Notes under the pieces: model-generated
Seen by the model: only the letters and a program-made list of their open reading frames with translations
What the model was told of the DNA's origin: nothing
Databases searched by the model: none
In this document: piece by piece, positions 30,971 through 39,327 of the stretch
Position numbering within the stretch: position 1 is the first letter of the stretch
Layout: every line of letters starts with the position of its first letter
NCBI GenBank assembly: GCA_902500825.1
Contig: CABVRX010000001.1
Span: forward strand, 1-64,000
Length of the DNA stretch: 64,000 nucleotides
Source: an uncultured Nitrospira sp.
GTDB taxonomy: Bacteria > Nitrospirota > Nitrospiria > Nitrospirales > Nitrospiraceae
Direction: 5' to 3'
Translations under genes and position numbers: made by a program

Positions 30971-31720
30971 ATGAGCAAGACAGCCTTACCACGCGAGCAA
31001 AAATCCTTTTCGGCCCAGGGAGTCAGACGCGAACAACTTATCAAGGAGTTTGCCCATGTCATTCGCGCAATGGCCCATCGACTGGCCTTTCGTCTCCCGG
31101 CATACCTGGACGCCGAGGACCTGATCTCGGTCGGTACCATCGGACTCATGGATGCCATGGACAAGTACGATCCGACCAGAGAAGCGAAGTTCAAGACGTA
31201 TGCGGAGTTCAGAATCCGTGGAGCCATGCTCGATGAGATTCGTTCGATGGATTGGATTCCACGATCGGTTCATGAACGAATCGGCCTGCTCCAAAAGACT
31301 CACACGGCGCTCATGAGCCGACTGGGAAGGCCGCCGCAGGATGAAGAAGTGGCGGCAGAACTGAAGATGTCCCTGGAAGAGCTCGATGATTTCATTACGC
31401 GGGCCAGAGGGGCGGTGATGATCAGTGTGGACGATCTCAGTCTTCATGAACCGGACGGGCACAAAGTGGTCAAGATGTTGGCCGACACGCACACGCCGGA
31501 TCCTCTTTCTTCATTGGTCAACGAACGTGAACGTGCAGCGCTCGCCGGGGCCATTCAATCGTTGCCGGAAAAAGAACGGCTCGTCCTGACGTTATATTAC
31601 TATGAGGAGCTCACGATGAAGGAAATCGGCGAGTTGCTGAAAGTCACTGAGTCACGGGTCTGCCAAATTCATACCAAGGCCATCATCCGGCTGAAGGCGC
31701 ACTTGCAAAGCCCGAATTGA
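30971..31720 (+). CDS. fliA: flagellar sigma factor FliA (sigma-28)
   Basis: 249 residues with the sigma-28 layout: region 2 EDLISVGTIGLMDAMDKYDP, then FKTYAEFRIRGAMLDEIRSM with DWIPRSVHERI, and region 4 LPEKERLVLTLYYYEELTMK, EIGELLKVTESRVCQIHTKA. FliA directs late flagellar and output genes and is held by FlgM (43701) until the hook is complete. It ends the flhA-F-G operon. Four sites in this window fit a FliA promoter, the nearest just downstream at 31802. Confidence 0.97.
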   Translation: MSKTALPREQKSFSAQGVRREQLIKEFAHVIRAMAHRLAFRLPAYLDAEDLISVGTIGLMDAMDKYDPTREAKFKTYAEFRIRGAMLDEIRSMDWIPRSVHERIGLLQKTHTALMSRLGRPPQDEEVAAELKMSLEELDDFITRARGAVMISVDDLSLHEPDGHKVVKMLADTHTPDPLSSLVNERERAALAGAIQSLPEKERLVLTLYYYEELTMKEIGELLKVTESRVCQIHTKAIIRLKAHLQSPN

Positions 31721-31801
31721 TCGAAGCGGTTCTCCGACTGGTTCGGCTTGTTCCGTTGTATTCGTTGTGATGCGATTTGCAATGTCCTGTTATCGCCTGC
31801 C

Positions 31802-31829
31802 TTCAGTTCTGTGTCAGAAAAACCGATAC
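31802..31829 (+). promoter_or_regulatory. candidate FliA (sigma-28) promoter before the GGDEF-like gene
   Basis: TTCAGTTC - 12 nt - ACCGATAC. The -35 half differs by one base from the flgM site TTAAGTTC and the spacing is identical. Predicted start near 31836, so the open frame's TTG at 31748 cannot be used from this promoter. Confidence 0.55.
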
Positions 31830-31852
31830 CTCACAGGACGAGATCCCGACAA

Positions 31853-32791
31853 ATGCCTGATGTATTGAGTGGGAATTCTTTACATCAGGTCGGAAGGTTG
31901 ATCGGGCTTCCGGTCTATTCAGAATTCCAGTCCAATTCTCATTCAGCAGTCACGACAATGCATTTGAAGGTATCGCACCATGAGGTCTCACGATCGCGAC
32001 ACCGATCGTTTGCATGGTGGTGTGCCTCAGCAACGATGTGCGGTGTCAGCCTGGTGTGGATGCAGGCGACGCCGGCCGGTTCTGTGGACGTAGCTGAAGT
32101 CCTCTCCGTACAGCGTGTCGTCGCTTGGATTGGTCTTGTTATCGCTGCCGGATTCGGTATGGCCGGCCTCTTGTGTTGGCCGTATAGTCAAGACGTCACG
32201 CAACGCAAGCAGGGGAATTCGATCTCGGCGTATGACAGCGTCACCGGCCTCCCTACGCGGCGACTCTATCTTGCCTTGCTTGGCCAGGCGTTGAATAGAG
32301 CCGACGCCATAAGGCGGAACGTTGCCGTTTTGGTATGCACCTTGGAACAGTTCCGTCCGCTGTCCACCGCTTCAACCACACCAAATATGACGCTGGTCGT
32401 GCGAGTGCAAGCCGCTCGCATCAAGAGTGCCCTGCAGCCTCATGATGTTGTGGCGCGTCTGGACGAATACACCTTTGCCGTGATTGCCGACAATCTCGAA
32501 TCATCGAATGAGGCTCGATTGATCGCCGAGAAAATCCAGAAAGCGATCGCCCTTCCCCTATTGATCGAAGGCCAGGAATTGCTGATTTCCTGCCGGATCG
32601 GGGGAATCGTGGGGCCGCAACATGGAACTCATGCCGAGTCACTGCTTGATGCCGCATCACAAGCCCTCTCGGAGAGTCAAACAGCCGACGTGTCTATTGC
32701 ATTTGTGTCGGATCCCGCAACACCTTCCTTCTCGCCATCAAGCCATGCCTCTACAAGCCGAATGCGTCGCTACGCAGGTGCGCGGCATTAG
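31853..32791 (+). CDS. membrane protein with degenerate GGDEF domain
   Basis: 312 residues from ATG 31853 (AGGACGAG about 10 nt upstream); ATG 31958 is an alternative without a ribosome site. Two membrane helices (RSFAWWCASATMCGVSLVWM and VVAWIGLVIAAGFGMAGLLC) precede a GGDEF-like fold: DSVTGLPTRRLYLALLGQAL, then VLVCTLEQFRPL, and RLDEYTFAVIADNLE where the signature GGDEF should be. The catalytic Gly-Gly is lost, so diguanylate cyclase activity is unlikely; it may bind c-di-GMP or act through protein contacts. It lies just after fliA with a FliA-like promoter, so it is probably a late motility output. Confidence 0.6.
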   Translation: MPDVLSGNSLHQVGRLIGLPVYSEFQSNSHSAVTTMHLKVSHHEVSRSRHRSFAWWCASATMCGVSLVWMQATPAGSVDVAEVLSVQRVVAWIGLVIAAGFGMAGLLCWPYSQDVTQRKQGNSISAYDSVTGLPTRRLYLALLGQALNRADAIRRNVAVLVCTLEQFRPLSTASTTPNMTLVVRVQAARIKSALQPHDVVARLDEYTFAVIADNLESSNEARLIAEKIQKAIALPLLIEGQELLISCRIGGIVGPQHGTHAESLLDAASQALSESQTADVSIAFVSDPATPSFSPSSHASTSRMRRYAGARH

Positions 32792-32965
32792 CCTCGTTAA
32801 CACTGATAAGCCAATAGTACTGCCTAGCCTCCCCATTGCAGGGTTAGACACCTCAGCGTGTTCGGATGAGGATAGGCATATGGTTCCCTTCATTCATATC
32901 GGTCAGTTCGTGTCGGCACCGATCGCACAGAACGACTTGAGATAAACAAAAACAACAGGTGGCAT

Positions 32966-35900
32966 ATGAACAACGGGACAACCGACGGAGCTGAATCCAC
33001 GGAGGCGTCGGTCGCCGTCCAGATCCTTGCCGATCCGACAGTTAGCTACGCTTCTTACCAGAATAGCGTTCCTCTCCTCCGCAGCCTCATCGTCACCAAT
33101 ACCTCTGACAATGCACTACGCGACCTCGAAATCTCTGTGCGTTGCGAGCCTGAATTCGCAGAGGCAATGCGGTTTCAGTTTGAGCGGCTGGATCCCAAGG
33201 AAACTCGGCGTATTGACGCCCTGGACCTGAAATTTCGACATCAATACCTCGCGGAGCTTAACGAGGCGGAGCGTGGCCGTGTGATCGTTGACATTAGTTC
33301 GTTAGAAACGAAGCTCTCCCGCACTGATCATGCGGTGGACGTGTTGGCATATGATCAATGGGGGGGCGTCCGTGCGTTGCCGGAATTGCTGGCCGCCTTT
33401 TCCCTCCCGAACAATCCTGCCGTCGATCGCATGATCTCTCAGGCCAGTGAACTTTTGTCTAAGACCGGTGGCGGTTGTTCGATGAACGGTTACCAGTCGA
33501 AGAACCGCGAGGACGTATGGGCGCAGGTTTCAGCGCTCTATAGCACGATTGGAGACTCTAACCTGCATTACAGCGAGCCGCCAGCCTCATTCACCAACGA
33601 TGGCCAGAAGATTCGTACGCCGGGCCGGGTGCTCTCGGGTGGGATCGCGACCTGCATGGACCTCGCCATGCTGTTCGCTTCTTGCCTCGAGCAGGCTGGC
33701 CTCAACCCGGTCGTGTTACTCAAGAAGGGGCATGCGTGGGTCGGCTGCTGGCTCATCAATACGACATTCTCGACACCGGCATTCGACGATGGTCAGGCGG
33801 TGCGCAAGCGGATTGCCAGCGGCGAGTTGATTGCATTCGAAACTACCATGCTGACTCATCGGCCAAGGCCCTCGCTGCGAGTATCCTGTGAGCATGGATT
33901 GGGGCACCTACAGCAGGAAGGCGAATTTCTGTTTGCTGTCGACGTCAAGCGCGCACGCATCGAACAAGTGAGGCCGTTGCCAAGCAAGACCGAAGCCGCG
34001 ATTGCCGAAGAAGACCGGTTGCCAGGGCGAGTCGCCGATACGGGTGTCGAGCTGTCTCCAGCGCTGCCGCCCCTAGACGGTGAGACATTCCTGCTCGACG
34101 AGAACGTGCGTCCAGAAACACCGGAAGGGCGGCTCGCTCGCTGGAAGTCAAAACTCCTAGATCTCACATTGCGCAACCGCCTGATCAATTTCAAACCGAC
34201 GAAGGTTATGCTGCCGTTGCGAGTGCCGGACCCGGCTCATCTGGAGGATGCATTGGCTGACGGGCAAGAATGGAAGTTTAGACCGTTACCGCAGATCATG
34301 CAGGGTTCGGATCCGCGAGTTGCCTCTGTTGCTGCAAAACGTACCGGCGAGGATCCGGTCGAGACGGCTGCGAAGCAGGCGATGGAGCAGAAGGAACTGC
34401 TCGCCGCCGTTGAGCCGAAGATCCTTGATGCTCGACTTTATGAAATTTACAGCACCGCACGCCTTGGACTAGAGGAAGGCGGCGCCAATACACTCTATCT
34501 GGCGCTCGGCTTTCTGAGCTGGGCCGAAGATGAACGAGCGGAAAAGACTCATCTTGCCCCGATTCTGCTGGTGCCGGTCACCCTCACGCGTCAGTCGGTG
34601 AGGACCGGCTATGCCATCAAACGACACGATGACGAAACCATCGTCAATCCGACACTGGTTCAATTGCTGCGCGAGAATTTCCAGTTGACGTTGAGAGGGC
34701 TCGATCCTCTGCCGACCGACGGAAACGGCGTGGACGTGAAGAAAATCTGGCAGATCTTCCGCATCGCAGTGAAGGAAATTCCACGCTGGGAAGTAAGAGA
34801 GGACGTCTACCTCGGCATCTTCTCCTTCACCAAGTATTTGATGTGGAAGGATTTGCAGGATCGCACGCAGCAGCTCCAGCAAAACCGTGTGGTGGATCAC
34901 TTGATCGAGCGTCCTCGGGAGCCTATCGGCGCTGGTGAGGATCTTTCTCCGCGCGAAGACCTCGACGAACGCCATGCGCCCGAGGACCTACTTGCGCCGC
35001 TACTGGCCGACTCTTCGCAATTGAATGCCCTGAGCCGTGCAGGTGAGGGTCATGACTTCGCGCTGGAGGGGCCACCAGGCACGGGGAAGTCCCAGACCAT
35101 CACTAATCTGATCGCGCATTTTTTGGGACACGGTAAGACGGTATTGTTTGTCTCGGAAAAAATGGCGGCACTCGACGTGGTCGAGCGTCGCCTTAAAGCG
35201 ATCGGGCTAGGGCCGTTTTGTCTGGAGCTACATTCGGCCAAGGCGCGCAAGACGGAGGTTCTTGCCCAGTTGCGCGAGGCCATGGACGCTGCTCGCGGCA
35301 TGGCGGGAAATTGGAAACACGAGGCGGAGCGCCTCGGCAGGCTGCGCGGCGATCTGAACGATTTCGTGAGAGCGCTGCACAGACGGCATCGCAACGGATT
35401 AACGGTGCGTGGAGCCACCGACACTGTAATTCGACATCAGGAGTGGACGCCCGCTCCCATGCCATGGCCGGACCCCGACATCCATGATGAAGAGACGTTG
35501 GACCGACTGCAGGAGACGATGCGCATTGCTCAGTCGGTCGCCGGCGAGCTTGGCAAGATCAAGAACAATCCGTTGTCCCTTGTACAGCACACCGAGTGGA
35601 CGAACGCCTGGGAAGAGCGCCTGCTCAAAGAGGCGGCGGCCCTGGAAGCAGTGGTCTCTCGGTTTCAAGAGGTCGCCATCGCTATTACTCCGATGCTGGG
35701 CATTCGATTAGACACGCCTTCGGCTGTCTTGCTGGACGCCGTCGATGGGTTGATTGACATCTTGCTGCAGGCGCCGCATGTGCCTAAAGAATTTGCCGCT
35801 CACGGTGGAAACCCGACTGTTCGAGCCAGCATGCAGACCGTTCGACAGCATGGAGAACGTCGGCAGGCTCATTGGCGGCGGTTATCTGAAAGATTCAAGT

Positions 35901-38254
35901 CCGAGGTTGCAGAAGTAAACGGTGCACAGCTAGCTCAGGATTGGAATCTCGCATCCAAAGCTTGGTGGCCCAAGCGCTGGTTTTTGCAGCGAGCGGTGAT
36001 GAGTCGTCTGGTGCCTTACACCTCCAATCAAAGACGACCCACTGTCGAAGAAATGCCGCCCCTGCTTGACACCTTGCGTCACCTGAATGTTGAAGATCAT
36101 GAGCTGAAAGCTTTAGAGGCGCATTGTGTCGAATTGCTGGGATGCGAATACAAGGGTCCGGATACAGATTGGGCGGCAGTGCATCGCTACGAACAGTGGG
36201 GAGCGCGTTTCGAGGAAGCGATCGGGAGAGTTGCGAACGGTAGTGATGAATCTACGATCGTGACCGTGAACGAACAGTTGTACAAGCTTGTAGGTGAGCA
36301 ACGCAGCCTGCTTCTTCCCACAGGGAATGGCAGCGGTAGACTGTCCGCGTTCCGCGATGCCTGGCATGGGCTTCGGAACCAGATTACAGTGGTAGCCGAC
36401 CTTTCAGGTGCCGGGAAGGCCTTGTCTGGAGAACCCGTCGTCGCAGGGCTGCCCAGCCGGGTGAGAACGATTGTCGGCGGGTGGGTTTCGTCTCGGCGCT
36501 ACTTGAAGTTGTGGTGTCGATGGCGGAAGTTGCGCGGGCAGGTCTTATCTGCGGGACAGGAGGCTGTCATTCGTGCAGTGGAAGAGGAACAGATACCTGT
36601 CCAGAATCTCCATACCTATGCCGACTATTCCTACCAAAACTGGTGGTTGAAAGCCGTGATTGACCGTGAACCGGCTCTCCGGAATTTCGCGAGCGCCGAC
36701 CATGACCGGAAAATCCTGGAGTTCCGGCAGACCGACGAGCGCTTCCAGAAGCTCACCGAGCGATATATCGTGGCCGTACTGGCAGGAAAGGTGCCACGGC
36801 AGCAGTCGAGAGAAAAACCAGACAAGGAAATAGCGCTGGTCTTGCACGAGCTTGCGAAGCAGCGAGCGCACTTGCCGGTGCGGCAACTGGTTCACCGTAT
36901 CCCCAATCTGCTTCCCAAGCTTAAACCCTGTCTGCTCATGTCGCCGTTGTCGGTTGCACAATACCTGGACGCCGCGCATTCGAACTTCGATGTGGTGGTG
37001 TTCGACGAAGCGTCCCAGATTCCGGTCTGGGACGCGGTCGGCGCCATCGCCCGAGGCAAGCAACTCATCGTGGTGGGTGATCCCAAACAGCTTCCGCCCA
37101 CCAACTTTTTCAATCGGGCAGATGGTGCCGAAGATGATGCTTCGGGTAACGAGGAAGATGCATTGGTCCCGGACCTGGAAAGCATACTGGATGAATGTCT
37201 GGGCGCCGGATTGCCCACGCTGCGTCTGGAATGGCACTACCGCAGTCGGCACGAAAGCCTGATCACTTTTTCGAACCACCGCTACTATGATTCCAGATTG
37301 ATTACCTTTCCGTCACCTGTGACAAATGATCTAGCTGTGAGACTGAACCTGGTAGACGGTATATACGATCGAGGTGCCACCCGTACAAACCGGGCCGAAG
37401 CCGACGCCATTGTCAAAGAGATCGTCACGCACTTTTCGGACGAATCGCGGCAAAAACTGACGATGGGCGTGGTGACGTTCAATCAGACGCAGCAGCGACT
37501 CATCGAAACGTTGTTGGACGAGGAATTACGCAAACATCCCGAGATTGAACAGCACATCGCCGAGCATGGGCCGGAACGGCTGTTCATCAAAAACCTTGAG
37601 AATGTGCAGGGTGACGAACGAGATCTCATCCTGTTCTCGATCACATATGGCAAGGACGTGGCGGGGAAGATGGCCATGAATTTCGGCCCGATCAACCAGG
37701 AAGGCGGACAGCGACGGCTGAACGTAGCAATCACCAGAGCACGGACTGGGGTGACGATCTTCAGTTCCATCCGCCCCGACGACATCGATCTATCTAAAAC
37801 CCGCTCAGCTGGCATCGCCGATCTGAAAAATTACCTCGAGTTTGTTATCAAAGGTCCACGCGCCATCATAGAGCAGGCCATCCCGACCGGTCTGGAACCT
37901 GAGAGTCCGCTGGAAATCGAAATTATCCGTGCCTTGCGCAACAAAGGTTGGACCGTGCACCCCCAGGTCGGCTGTTCCGGCTACCGGATCGACATGGCCG
38001 TCGTTCATCCGCAAAAGCAGGGAAGATATCTTCTGGGGATCGAGTGCGACGGGGCGACATATCACTCCTTGCCCACGGCACGTGATCGAGATCGGCTGCG
38101 TCAATTCGTGCTAGAAGACCTGGGCTGGACGCTGCATCGGGTATGGTCAACTGACTGGTGGAACGATCCGGAGCGGGAAATAGAGAAGCTGGAATGGTCA
38201 ATCAATAAACGATTAGCCACTGAATCGTCTCAACGATCAGGCTGCATAGAGTAA
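32966..38254 (+). CDS. DUF4011 / SF1 helicase / Vsr-like nuclease protein (anti-phage type)
   Basis: 1762 residues. An N-terminal domain includes a transglutaminase-like pair, C230 (GGIATCMDLA) and H256 (KKGHAWVGCW). A DUF4011 region follows (RWKSKLLDLTLRNRLINFKP, about 390-410). The SF1 helicase has P-loop GPPGTGKS (702-709, K708), Walker B DEAS (1347-1350), GDPKQLPPTNFF, YRSRHESL and the late motif NVAITRAR. The C-terminus (about 1640-1745) has a Vsr/MTES_1575-type PD-(D/E)xK nuclease: YRIDMAV then GIECDG and RDRDRLRQ. I recall this architecture as hhe (DUF4011-helicase-Vsr) in the Gao et al. 2020 defence screen. It is a single-gene insert between the GGDEF-like gene and flgF, with a modest AGGTGG before ATG 32966. 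Confidence 0.85.
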   Translation: MNNGTTDGAESTEASVAVQILADPTVSYASYQNSVPLLRSLIVTNTSDNALRDLEISVRCEPEFAEAMRFQFERLDPKETRRIDALDLKFRHQYLAELNEAERGRVIVDISSLETKLSRTDHAVDVLAYDQWGGVRALPELLAAFSLPNNPAVDRMISQASELLSKTGGGCSMNGYQSKNREDVWAQVSALYSTIGDSNLHYSEPPASFTNDGQKIRTPGRVLSGGIATCMDLAMLFASCLEQAGLNPVVLLKKGHAWVGCWLINTTFSTPAFDDGQAVRKRIASGELIAFETTMLTHRPRPSLRVSCEHGLGHLQQEGEFLFAVDVKRARIEQVRPLPSKTEAAIAEEDRLPGRVADTGVELSPALPPLDGETFLLDENVRPETPEGRLARWKSKLLDLTLRNRLINFKPTKVMLPLRVPDPAHLEDALADGQEWKFRPLPQIMQGSDPRVASVAAKRTGEDPVETAAKQAMEQKELLAAVEPKILDARLYEIYSTARLGLEEGGANTLYLALGFLSWAEDERAEKTHLAPILLVPVTLTRQSVRTGYAIKRHDDETIVNPTLVQLLRENFQLTLRGLDPLPTDGNGVDVKKIWQIFRIAVKEIPRWEVREDVYLGIFSFTKYLMWKDLQDRTQQLQQNRVVDHLIERPREPIGAGEDLSPREDLDERHAPEDLLAPLLADSSQLNALSRAGEGHDFALEGPPGTGKSQTITNLIAHFLGHGKTVLFVSEKMAALDVVERRLKAIGLGPFCLELHSAKARKTEVLAQLREAMDAARGMAGNWKHEAERLGRLRGDLNDFVRALHRRHRNGLTVRGATDTVIRHQEWTPAPMPWPDPDIHDEETLDRLQETMRIAQSVAGELGKIKNNPLSLVQHTEWTNAWEERLLKEAAALEAVVSRFQEVAIAITPMLGIRLDTPSAVLLDAVDGLIDILLQAPHVPKEFAAHGGNPTVRASMQTVRQHGERRQAHWRRLSERFKSEVAEVNGAQLAQDWNLASKAWWPKRWFLQRAVMSRLVPYTSNQRRPTVEEMPPLLDTLRHLNVEDHELKALEAHCVELLGCEYKGPDTDWAAVHRYEQWGARFEEAIGRVANGSDESTIVTVNEQLYKLVGEQRSLLLPTGNGSGRLSAFRDAWHGLRNQITVVADLSGAGKALSGEPVVAGLPSRVRTIVGGWVSSRRYLKLWCRWRKLRGQVLSAGQEAVIRAVEEEQIPVQNLHTYADYSYQNWWLKAVIDREPALRNFASADHDRKILEFRQTDERFQKLTERYIVAVLAGKVPRQQSREKPDKEIALVLHELAKQRAHLPVRQLVHRIPNLLPKLKPCLLMSPLSVAQYLDAAHSNFDVVVFDEASQIPVWDAVGAIARGKQLIVVGDPKQLPPTNFFNRADGAEDDASGNEEDALVPDLESILDECLGAGLPTLRLEWHYRSRHESLITFSNHRYYDSRLITFPSPVTNDLAVRLNLVDGIYDRGATRTNRAEADAIVKEIVTHFSDESRQKLTMGVVTFNQTQQRLIETLLDEELRKHPEIEQHIAEHGPERLFIKNLENVQGDERDLILFSITYGKDVAGKMAMNFGPINQEGGQRRLNVAITRARTGVTIFSSIRPDDIDLSKTRSAGIADLKNYLEFVIKGPRAIIEQAIPTGLEPESPLEIEIIRALRNKGWTVHPQVGCSGYRIDMAVVHPQKQGRYLLGIECDGATYHSLPTARDRDRLRQFVLEDLGWTLHRVWSTDWWNDPEREIEKLEWSINKRLATESSQRSGCIE

Positions 38255-38508
38255 CTCTCCTTGGCGCAAGATGTCGGCAGGGAACGAGGCCATGACGTGG
38301 GCGATTGTTGACCTGCAGGCGACCGATCATCCAACTAGGCATATTTTTCACTGAGCCTGGTAAGAATAGCCTAATAATATCCTGTCAGTGATGACGACTT
38401 CCCTCATTCCTTCTTCCATCGGTATTCAGTCTTCTTAATCTCCTAAGGAATTGACTCATTTCCGATCATCCGTTGGTACTTATCCCAACAATATTTCGTC
38501 GGTGAGCC

Positions 38509-38524
38509 TGGCATGAGGGTTGCT
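38509..38524 (+). promoter_or_regulatory. sigma-54 promoter of flgF-flgG-...
   Basis: TGGCATGAGGGTTGCT has GG, ten bases, GC and TTGCT, the closest full match in the window apart from a T for C in TGGCAC. Predicted start near 38535, 22 nt before flgF. The rest of the gap 38255-38508 holds no gene, repeat or clear terminator that I can see. Confidence 0.8.
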
Positions 38525-38556
38525 GTTCTCTCTCGAAGACAAAAGGAGTCGGCAAC

Positions 38557-39327
38557 ATGAATCGAGGTATTTATCCTATCTTGTCCGGAGCACTGGCCCA
38601 CGAGCGGCGGATGCAGGTGTTCGCGAACAACATGGCCAATGTGAATACCGCGGGTTTTAAGCAGGACGAACAGGCGTTCAAAGCCATATTCCCACGATAT
38701 CACGCGGTCGTTCCGACTGGAGGCCGAACCATGGGATTGGCCCAACAGATCATGGCCAGGCCGTTTGGACCGACTGAGCGCGCGTTTGTCGCGCCGCACC
38801 AGATCAAGACCACATTTGAGCCGGGCCGCATTCGACTGACCGGTAATCCGCTGGACATCGCTGTTCAAGGACGAGGGTTTTTGGAAGTACAGACGCCTCA
38901 AGGGCTTCGATATACCCGCAACGGCATGCTCTCGCTGGACAATCAACATCGGTTGGTGAACGGACTTGGCTATCCCGTGATGGGGACGAAAGGTGAGATC
39001 AAGATTCCTCCCGGCAAATTGGAAATCACGACACAGGGAGCCATCAAAGTCGATGATAAACCTGTGGCGACCATCAAAGTCATGGAGTTTGCGGATAACG
39101 ACATGCCACAGAAGTCGTCGGAAGGGCTTTTCTTTTCGGAGAAAGGCACAGTGGCCAAGAATCCGCAGATTCAGGTCGGGCATATCGAAGAATCCAACGT
39201 CAATTCCATCGGTGAGATGGTAAAGATGATTCAGGGCATGCGTAACTACGAATCGACGCAAAAGCTGATTCAGACGCTTGATCGAATGGCCGAAGTCGCG
39301 ATTCAAGACGTAGGGCGGGTGCTATGA
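38557..39327 (+). CDS. flgF: flagellar rod protein FlgF
   Basis: 256 residues. N-terminal YPILSGALAHERRMQVFANN, MANVNTAGFKQDEQ and the C-terminal HIEESNVNSIGEMVKMIQGM, RNYESTQKLIQTLD are the typical paired rod helices. Its length and its place before flgG fit FlgF, a proximal rod part; the distinction from a second FlgG rests on order. AAAAGGAG lies 10 nt before ATG 38557. flgG follows after a 112-nt gap. Confidence 0.9.
   Translation: MNRGIYPILSGALAHERRMQVFANNMANVNTAGFKQDEQAFKAIFPRYHAVVPTGGRTMGLAQQIMARPFGPTERAFVAPHQIKTTFEPGRIRLTGNPLDIAVQGRGFLEVQTPQGLRYTRNGMLSLDNQHRLVNGLGYPVMGTKGEIKIPPGKLEITTQGAIKVDDKPVATIKVMEFADNDMPQKSSEGLFFSEKGTVAKNPQIQVGHIEESNVNSIGEMVKMIQGMRNYESTQKLIQTLDRMAEVAIQDVGRVL

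Follow-up and report, generated by a model that had tools for sequence, protein, structure and literature searches.

Why does a single giant gene with the look of an anti-phage protein stand among the flagellar genes of a Nitrospira genome, and where did it come from? The gene lies in a stretch of 64,000 nucleotides (the window; positions 1 to 64,000 of contig CABVRX010000001.1 in the uncultured Nitrospira sp. assembly GCA_902500825.1), which we compared with other genomes of the genus and family. Below, G000 denotes the window's genome, G016 and G003 belong to the same genus, and G201 belongs to another genus of the family. The gene, hereafter proA, has the following surroundings:

30971-31720: FliA gene
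31748..32791, + strand: left neighbor, GGDEF-family gene behind fliA (PF00990, 4.1e-19)
32899..32965, + strand: 67-bp match to the csb2-proA junction of G201, comprising the csb2 3' end and the csb2-proA leader (the scar)
32966..38254, + strand: ProA-family giant protein, 1762 aa, open ORF with an ATG start (NF058533, PDC-S37, and Pfam matches)
38255..38334, + strand: right spacer, common only to G016 (90%), the right junction being the same in both species
38335..38556, + strand: flgF leader, uninterrupted by the insertion, beginning CTAGGCATATTTTTC and with a sigma-54-like TGGCATGAGGGTTGCTG at 38509
38557..39327, + strand: right neighbor flgF, an ORF conserved in 68/77 genomes of the genus

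The GGDEF gene is separated from proA by 174 bp and proA from flgF by 302 bp. No cas gene adjoins this copy, which does not stand between a csb2 and a cas4-1, no further defense gene is clustered in the window, and proA has no modification enzyme as a neighbor. The GC content of proA (0.55 to 0.59) is level with that of its neighbors, so that composition alone would not mark it as foreign, and GC gave no signal of a foreign origin. Delivery by a mobile element was rejected, as a tRNA search of the window recovered none and the ORFs flanking proA showed neither an integrase nor a transposase. The left neighbor has a degenerate signature, with RLDEYTFAV in place of GGDEF, and among relatives the GGDEF-family gene behind fliA is full-length, shortened, or missing.

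The 1762-aa protein combines, in this order, a transglutaminase-like N terminus, DUF4011, a split SF1 helicase, and a Vsr-type (MTES_1575) nuclease, with every catalytic motif present in the window copy:

32996..33955, + strand: N-terminal beta-sandwich and transglutaminase-like core, residues about 11-330 (alignment, structure model)
34151..34669, + strand: DUF4011, residues 396-568 (PF13195, 1.2e-46)
35069..35092, + strand: Walker A motif GPPGTGKS, residues 702-709, including K708 (AAA_30-type match)
37004..37015, + strand: Walker B motif DEAS, residues 1347-1350, in the second helicase half (AAA_11/AAA_12, about 1332-1600)
37913..38194, + strand: Vsr-type REase MTES_1575, residues 1650-1743, with RID and GIECDG motifs (PF18741, 6.2e-38)

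The two SF1 helicase halves (AAA_11/AAA_12 in Pfam) are about 590 residues apart, and the solved helicases nearest to them are Sen1, SMUBP-2, UPF1, and DNA2. Much of what the initial annotation had proposed from the letters of the window held up: ORF coordinates and Pfam matches confirm the position after fliA and a GGDEF-like gene and before flgF, the Pfam domains bear out the label "DUF4011-helicase-Vsr," which is right because MTES_1575 is counted as a Vsr-family REase (PMC3710099), and K708 is the Walker A lysine, since GPPGTGKS begins at residue 702. The N-terminal transglutaminase-like domain is absent from that description. In this domain C230 (33653), H256 (33731), D274, D275, and E292 are invariant in the alignment (9 relatives, down to about 31 to 33% identity) and provide the conserved Cys-His-Asp/Glu of transglutaminase-like peptidases, the acid being D274, D275, or E292. 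The structure model of the N terminus has a pLDDT of 67; at this pLDDT, its Foldseek matches are mostly to TG2, TG3, and factor XIII, at low TM, and VIA-align aligns residues 127-326 with protease 3kd4 (Z 9.7, 133 aligned, 2.9 Å). On this model of moderate confidence, the N terminus may resemble transglutaminases and a transglutaminase-like protease.

Against NCBIfam NF058533 ("anti-phage protein ProA") the protein scores 2114.7 bits and passes the curated cut-off of 1500, and the earlier reading as a defense gene is supported by this membership in a defense family. The window protein spans positions 1-1713 of a model that continues to 1903 and is therefore short of full length; together with the relatives in G201 and in another genome, G187, it stops right behind the nuclease (model position 1712 to 1716), and Pfam finds DUF3320 in none of the three. 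As the curated ProA score is passed although the DUF3320 region is missing, the protein is a variant of the family and not a typical member. The ProA proteins of Klebsiella plasmids and Methylobacterium ("DUF3320 domain-containing protein") have the same domain order, which the window protein follows in full to profile position 1713, but there ProA reaches the model end, or nearly so, with a DUF3320 detected by Pfam, whereas the Nitrospira members lack this winged helix (DUF3320 is described as a winged helix-turn-helix in PMC3710099). We found no publications on ProA or PDC-S37 in the literature searched. Giant proteins that join a transglutaminase, an SF1 helicase, and a Vsr REase were described as a defense family in 2013 (PMC3710099); these MTES_1575-type giants resemble the window protein in that a single chain bears a transglutaminase-like peptidase along with the SF1 helicase and the Vsr REase, and in having no modification gene, and were proposed to work without modification, but they carry HEPN and wHTH domains, neither of which was detected in the window protein.

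Relatives in CRISPR loci bear on the origin of the gene. The G201 relative, full-length and 83% identical, belongs to a complete type I-G operon, where csb2 precedes it and cas4-1 follows; the order is Cas3g, Csx17, Csb1, Csb2, ProA, and Cas4g/Cas1g, followed by repeats, and each gene exceeds its NCBIfam cut-off. In G003, a replaced effector module is followed by a G201-like csb2 tail with the first 33 ProA codons, and then by Cas4-1. These two Nitrospira loci, one intact copy and one remnant, are the cases seen with a link to type I-G cas genes, and the remaining relatives viewed have no such tie. The csb2-cas4-1 junction also holds cargo in Thioalkalivibrio type I-G loci, where toxin-antitoxin and xpf-like genes occupy it (PMC9638904), just as other Nitrospira carry MNT/HEPN-like genes there (named from the sequence itself and not from a profile). 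Unlike these cargo-bearing loci, the window copy lies outside any such locus, in a genome with type I-E.

The window retains a trace of such a junction. The 67 bp in front of the start codon match the G201 junction with a local score of 54, and none of 1456 control stretches taken from the window was as good (best control, 22); the csb2-coding part alone scores 33, versus 22 for the best control. Positions 32899-32965 also match the G003 cas locus. Because csb2 has the identical HFGLGQF ending in type I-G loci that lack ProA, the scar stretch belongs to csb2, and a scar with csb2 sequence argues that the window copy once stood behind a csb2. A ProA subfamily without DUF3320 would then be optional cargo between csb2 and cas4-1 in type I-G loci, and the window copy would have moved, with 67 bp of the csb2 junction, into the gap that separates the GGDEF gene from the flgF leader, either within the genome or with a transfer. 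We consider it probable that the window's ProA is a relocated orphan of this kind with a predicted role in DNA-cutting defense.

An unlikely alternative is that a standalone ProA was gained directly in the flagellar interval, the csb2 match being due to chance or to ProA's own leader. Most relatives seen, including those in Methylobacterium and on plasmids as well as the G187 orphan, have no adjoining cas genes, and about 30 bases before the start codon are common to G187 and may be ProA's own leader; before the G187 copy no csb2-coding scar was found and the leader alone matches, and the csb2-coding part is likewise missing from G016. However, the window match extends about 34 bp into csb2 codons, with those for LGQFV kept, to an extent equaled by 0/1456 controls, and ProA or its remnant stands at exactly the csb2-cas4-1 junction in two genomes.

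The CRISPR loci themselves differ between the two species of the genus that carry proA. No Cas4g/Cas1g was found in the window's genome, which has a type I-E system beside clpB (G000:C25, L182 13042-18602), while in G016 a locus of I-G type flanks clpB (G016:C77, L179) and includes an adaptation module of that type (Cas4g/Cas1g). A search with the divergent Csb1 of G003 had suggested that type I-G was absent from G016, which this module overturned. CRISPR types appear to have been swapped whole at one chromosomal place, with I-E in G000 and the I-G type in G016. Several type I-G loci (L102, L179, L180, L183, and L184) also keep 30 to 40 bp of an old csb2 tail before cas4-1 despite divergent replacement effectors, as if effector exchange in these loci breaks at the csb2 end.

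Within the genus, full-length proA is present in only 2/79 genomes (species), G000 and G016, whose proteins are 88% identical and whose genes both lie between the GGDEF gene and flgF. This presence rules out a fixed flagellar gene of the genus and supports an accessory gene, inserted into the flagellar locus as the initial annotation had it. At this site the nearest relatives carry either nothing or other cargo (HicAB, HigBA-like, SBBP, or RHS/transposase genes). Among the 56 genomes counted, in which fliA and flgF are joined on one contig, the two genes are at most 1.4 kb apart in 47, with the GGDEF gene, part of it, or nothing between them, and more than 2 kb apart in 9. The nine long intervals hold ProA (twice), HicA/HicB-like genes, HigB/HigA-like genes, genes for SBBP-type proteins, an aminotransferase with a GNAT gene, and RHS/transposase clusters, the SBBP, RHS, and transposase names having been assigned by reading the sequence. 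No second dedicated defense system was found in the fliA-flgF intervals of these 56 genomes, and the mixed cargo, in an interval that is long in 9/56, argues for a tolerated insertion space and not a dedicated defense hotspot. The suggestion that the site might be a hotspot is supported in part, by a variable cargo that includes toxin-antitoxin pairs but does not consist chiefly of defense genes. A suggested link to flagellum-binding phages finds no support in the relatives, whose settings are a CRISPR operon, the vicinity of siroheme-type genes, or plasmids.

Insertions in close relatives end at the conserved flgF leader, CTAGG[A/C]ATATTTTTC ... TGGCATGAGGGTTGCTG, and the space before this leader would tolerate insertion because an insert there leaves the flgF promoter region unbroken. 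Across most of the genus, the flgF leader retains a sigma-54-like TGGCA-N7-TTGCT motif. Close relatives have two forms of the leader (G000, G016, and G044 versus G060, G040, and G081) that are 54 to 61% identical, and flgF itself is 84 to 93% identical between the two groups.

Between G000 and G016, ProA has a dS of 0.447, compared with 0.433 for FlhA, 0.458 for ClpB, and 0.30 to 0.50 for the flanking genes. Since these values are alike, proA has most likely been inherited at the flagellar site since the two species split, and to judge from the substitutions it was most likely constrained for most of that time (dN/dS 0.15, lowest in the helicase and DUF4011 parts). The initial annotation had held that its insertion model would fall if the gene were fixed at this site across the genus and evolved like the flagellar genes; the first is contradicted by presence in 2/79 genomes, whereas the second is borne out by the synonymous rate between G000 and G016. 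Independent insertion of the two copies is less likely, since they have a common right spacer and a dS matching that of the flanking genes, and G044, G060, and G040 most likely came to be without proA by loss or by exchange through recombination. Some recombination took place at the site: in G016 the coding part of flgF groups with G060, yet the leader in front of it shares 98% identity with the leader of G044.

Divergence was also compared between genera. The pS of ProA is 0.51 to 0.54 between G000 and G201 or G187, compared with 0.75 for ClpB and 0.67 for FlhA (G000-G187), and between G187 and G201 it is 0.37, versus 0.72 for ClpB; FlhA rows with G201 and ClpB rows with G003 were left out of these comparisons as out of frame (dN about 1). 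Because the pS of ProA lies well below that of ClpB and FlhA, ProA crossed genera after their split. ProA appears to be cargo of cas loci that crossed genera and was relocated to the flagellar site. An 80% identical ProA is encoded on L115 (CAADGY010000367.1), filed as an uncultured Acidobacteria MAG; misbinning of a Nitrospira contig, or else a transfer, is the likely explanation. The nearest plasmid-borne ProA seen outside Nitrospira is that of Paraburkholderia sp. PGU19, on a 2.4-Mb plasmid (53.5% identity; L173 5539-14883), where the gene sits behind integrase-like and transposase-like ORFs.

Whether the cargo still serves its carrier can also be asked, and it is quite improbable that proA is functionless, carried by chance, and on its way out. 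In G016, the sole other holder in the genus (L052 4428-9716), a TGA replaces the W883 codon in an otherwise open frame and the Walker A motif is changed from GTGKS to GTGKL; two changes in one gene suggest decay, with an assembly error possible. G003 retains 33 codons only, and close relatives lost the gene or never had it. The window copy, however, has an uninterrupted frame of 1762 codons and retains every motif, and the low dN/dS between G000 and G016 speaks against a gene without function.

From its domains, the relocated ProA would load onto invading DNA, along which the SF1 helicase would translocate with ATP and which the Vsr-type nuclease would cut; the transglutaminase-like domain may process a protein, either ProA itself or a target, thereby acting as a gate or as a further effector. 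The anti-phage function of the window copy is in this sense a prediction from sequence. DNA recognition through a C-terminal winged helix has been proposed for such giants (PMC3710099), and in a subfamily without this helix, recognition would lie elsewhere or depend on partner proteins in type I-G loci. An orphan copy under constraint suggests that type I-G effector genes need not be nearby for proA to be retained. It would be a long shot to propose that Nitrospira ProA dropped DUF3320 because the type I-G effector aims it or switches it on, as a back-up nuclease for stalled interference, and that it later became an orphan beside another CRISPR type (here I-E). Cooperation of ProA with a CRISPR effector in cas operons, if true, would make the gene of greater interest.

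The name hhe in the initial annotation, which reportedly originates with Gao et al. in 2020, did not survive comparison with the curated profiles. Hhe likewise has DUF4011, an SF1 helicase, and a Vsr-type nuclease in identical order, and the matches of the window protein to it are significant (626.8 bits in PADLOC, 912.1 bits to NCBIfam NF042953), but the latter fails the curated cut-off of 2000, which rules out membership, and PDC-S37 scores twice as high as Hhe in PADLOC (1250.8 bits). The relatives tested all behave alike on the two profiles. With the ProA cut-off passed, the Hhe cut-off failed, and PADLOC agreeing, Hhe is a related yet different family, and it is very unlikely that the gene is a single-gene Hhe system inserted as such. 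A host gene for flagella or DNA repair is extremely improbable, for although proA shares its strand with the flagellar genes, leaves their leader intact, and has helicase halves like those of Sen1, UPF1, and DNA2, it is missing from 77/79 species whose flagellar loci are largely present, and its relatives are found within a CRISPR operon and on plasmids.

What is new here is the apparent CRISPR-locus origin with its scar, a DUF3320-less subfamily linked to type I-G, and the history of transfer. It seems that a giant gene of the innate type departed from a locus of adaptive immunity and took up a place between core flagellar genes. The tie between this subfamily and type I-G loci makes it testable whether ProA acts alone or with Cas proteins. 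As proA stands outside any defense island, searches based on islands would miss such a gene. A conserved DUF4011 gene also flanks the core defense hotspot cDHS1 of Pseudomonas aeruginosa (PMC10250203).
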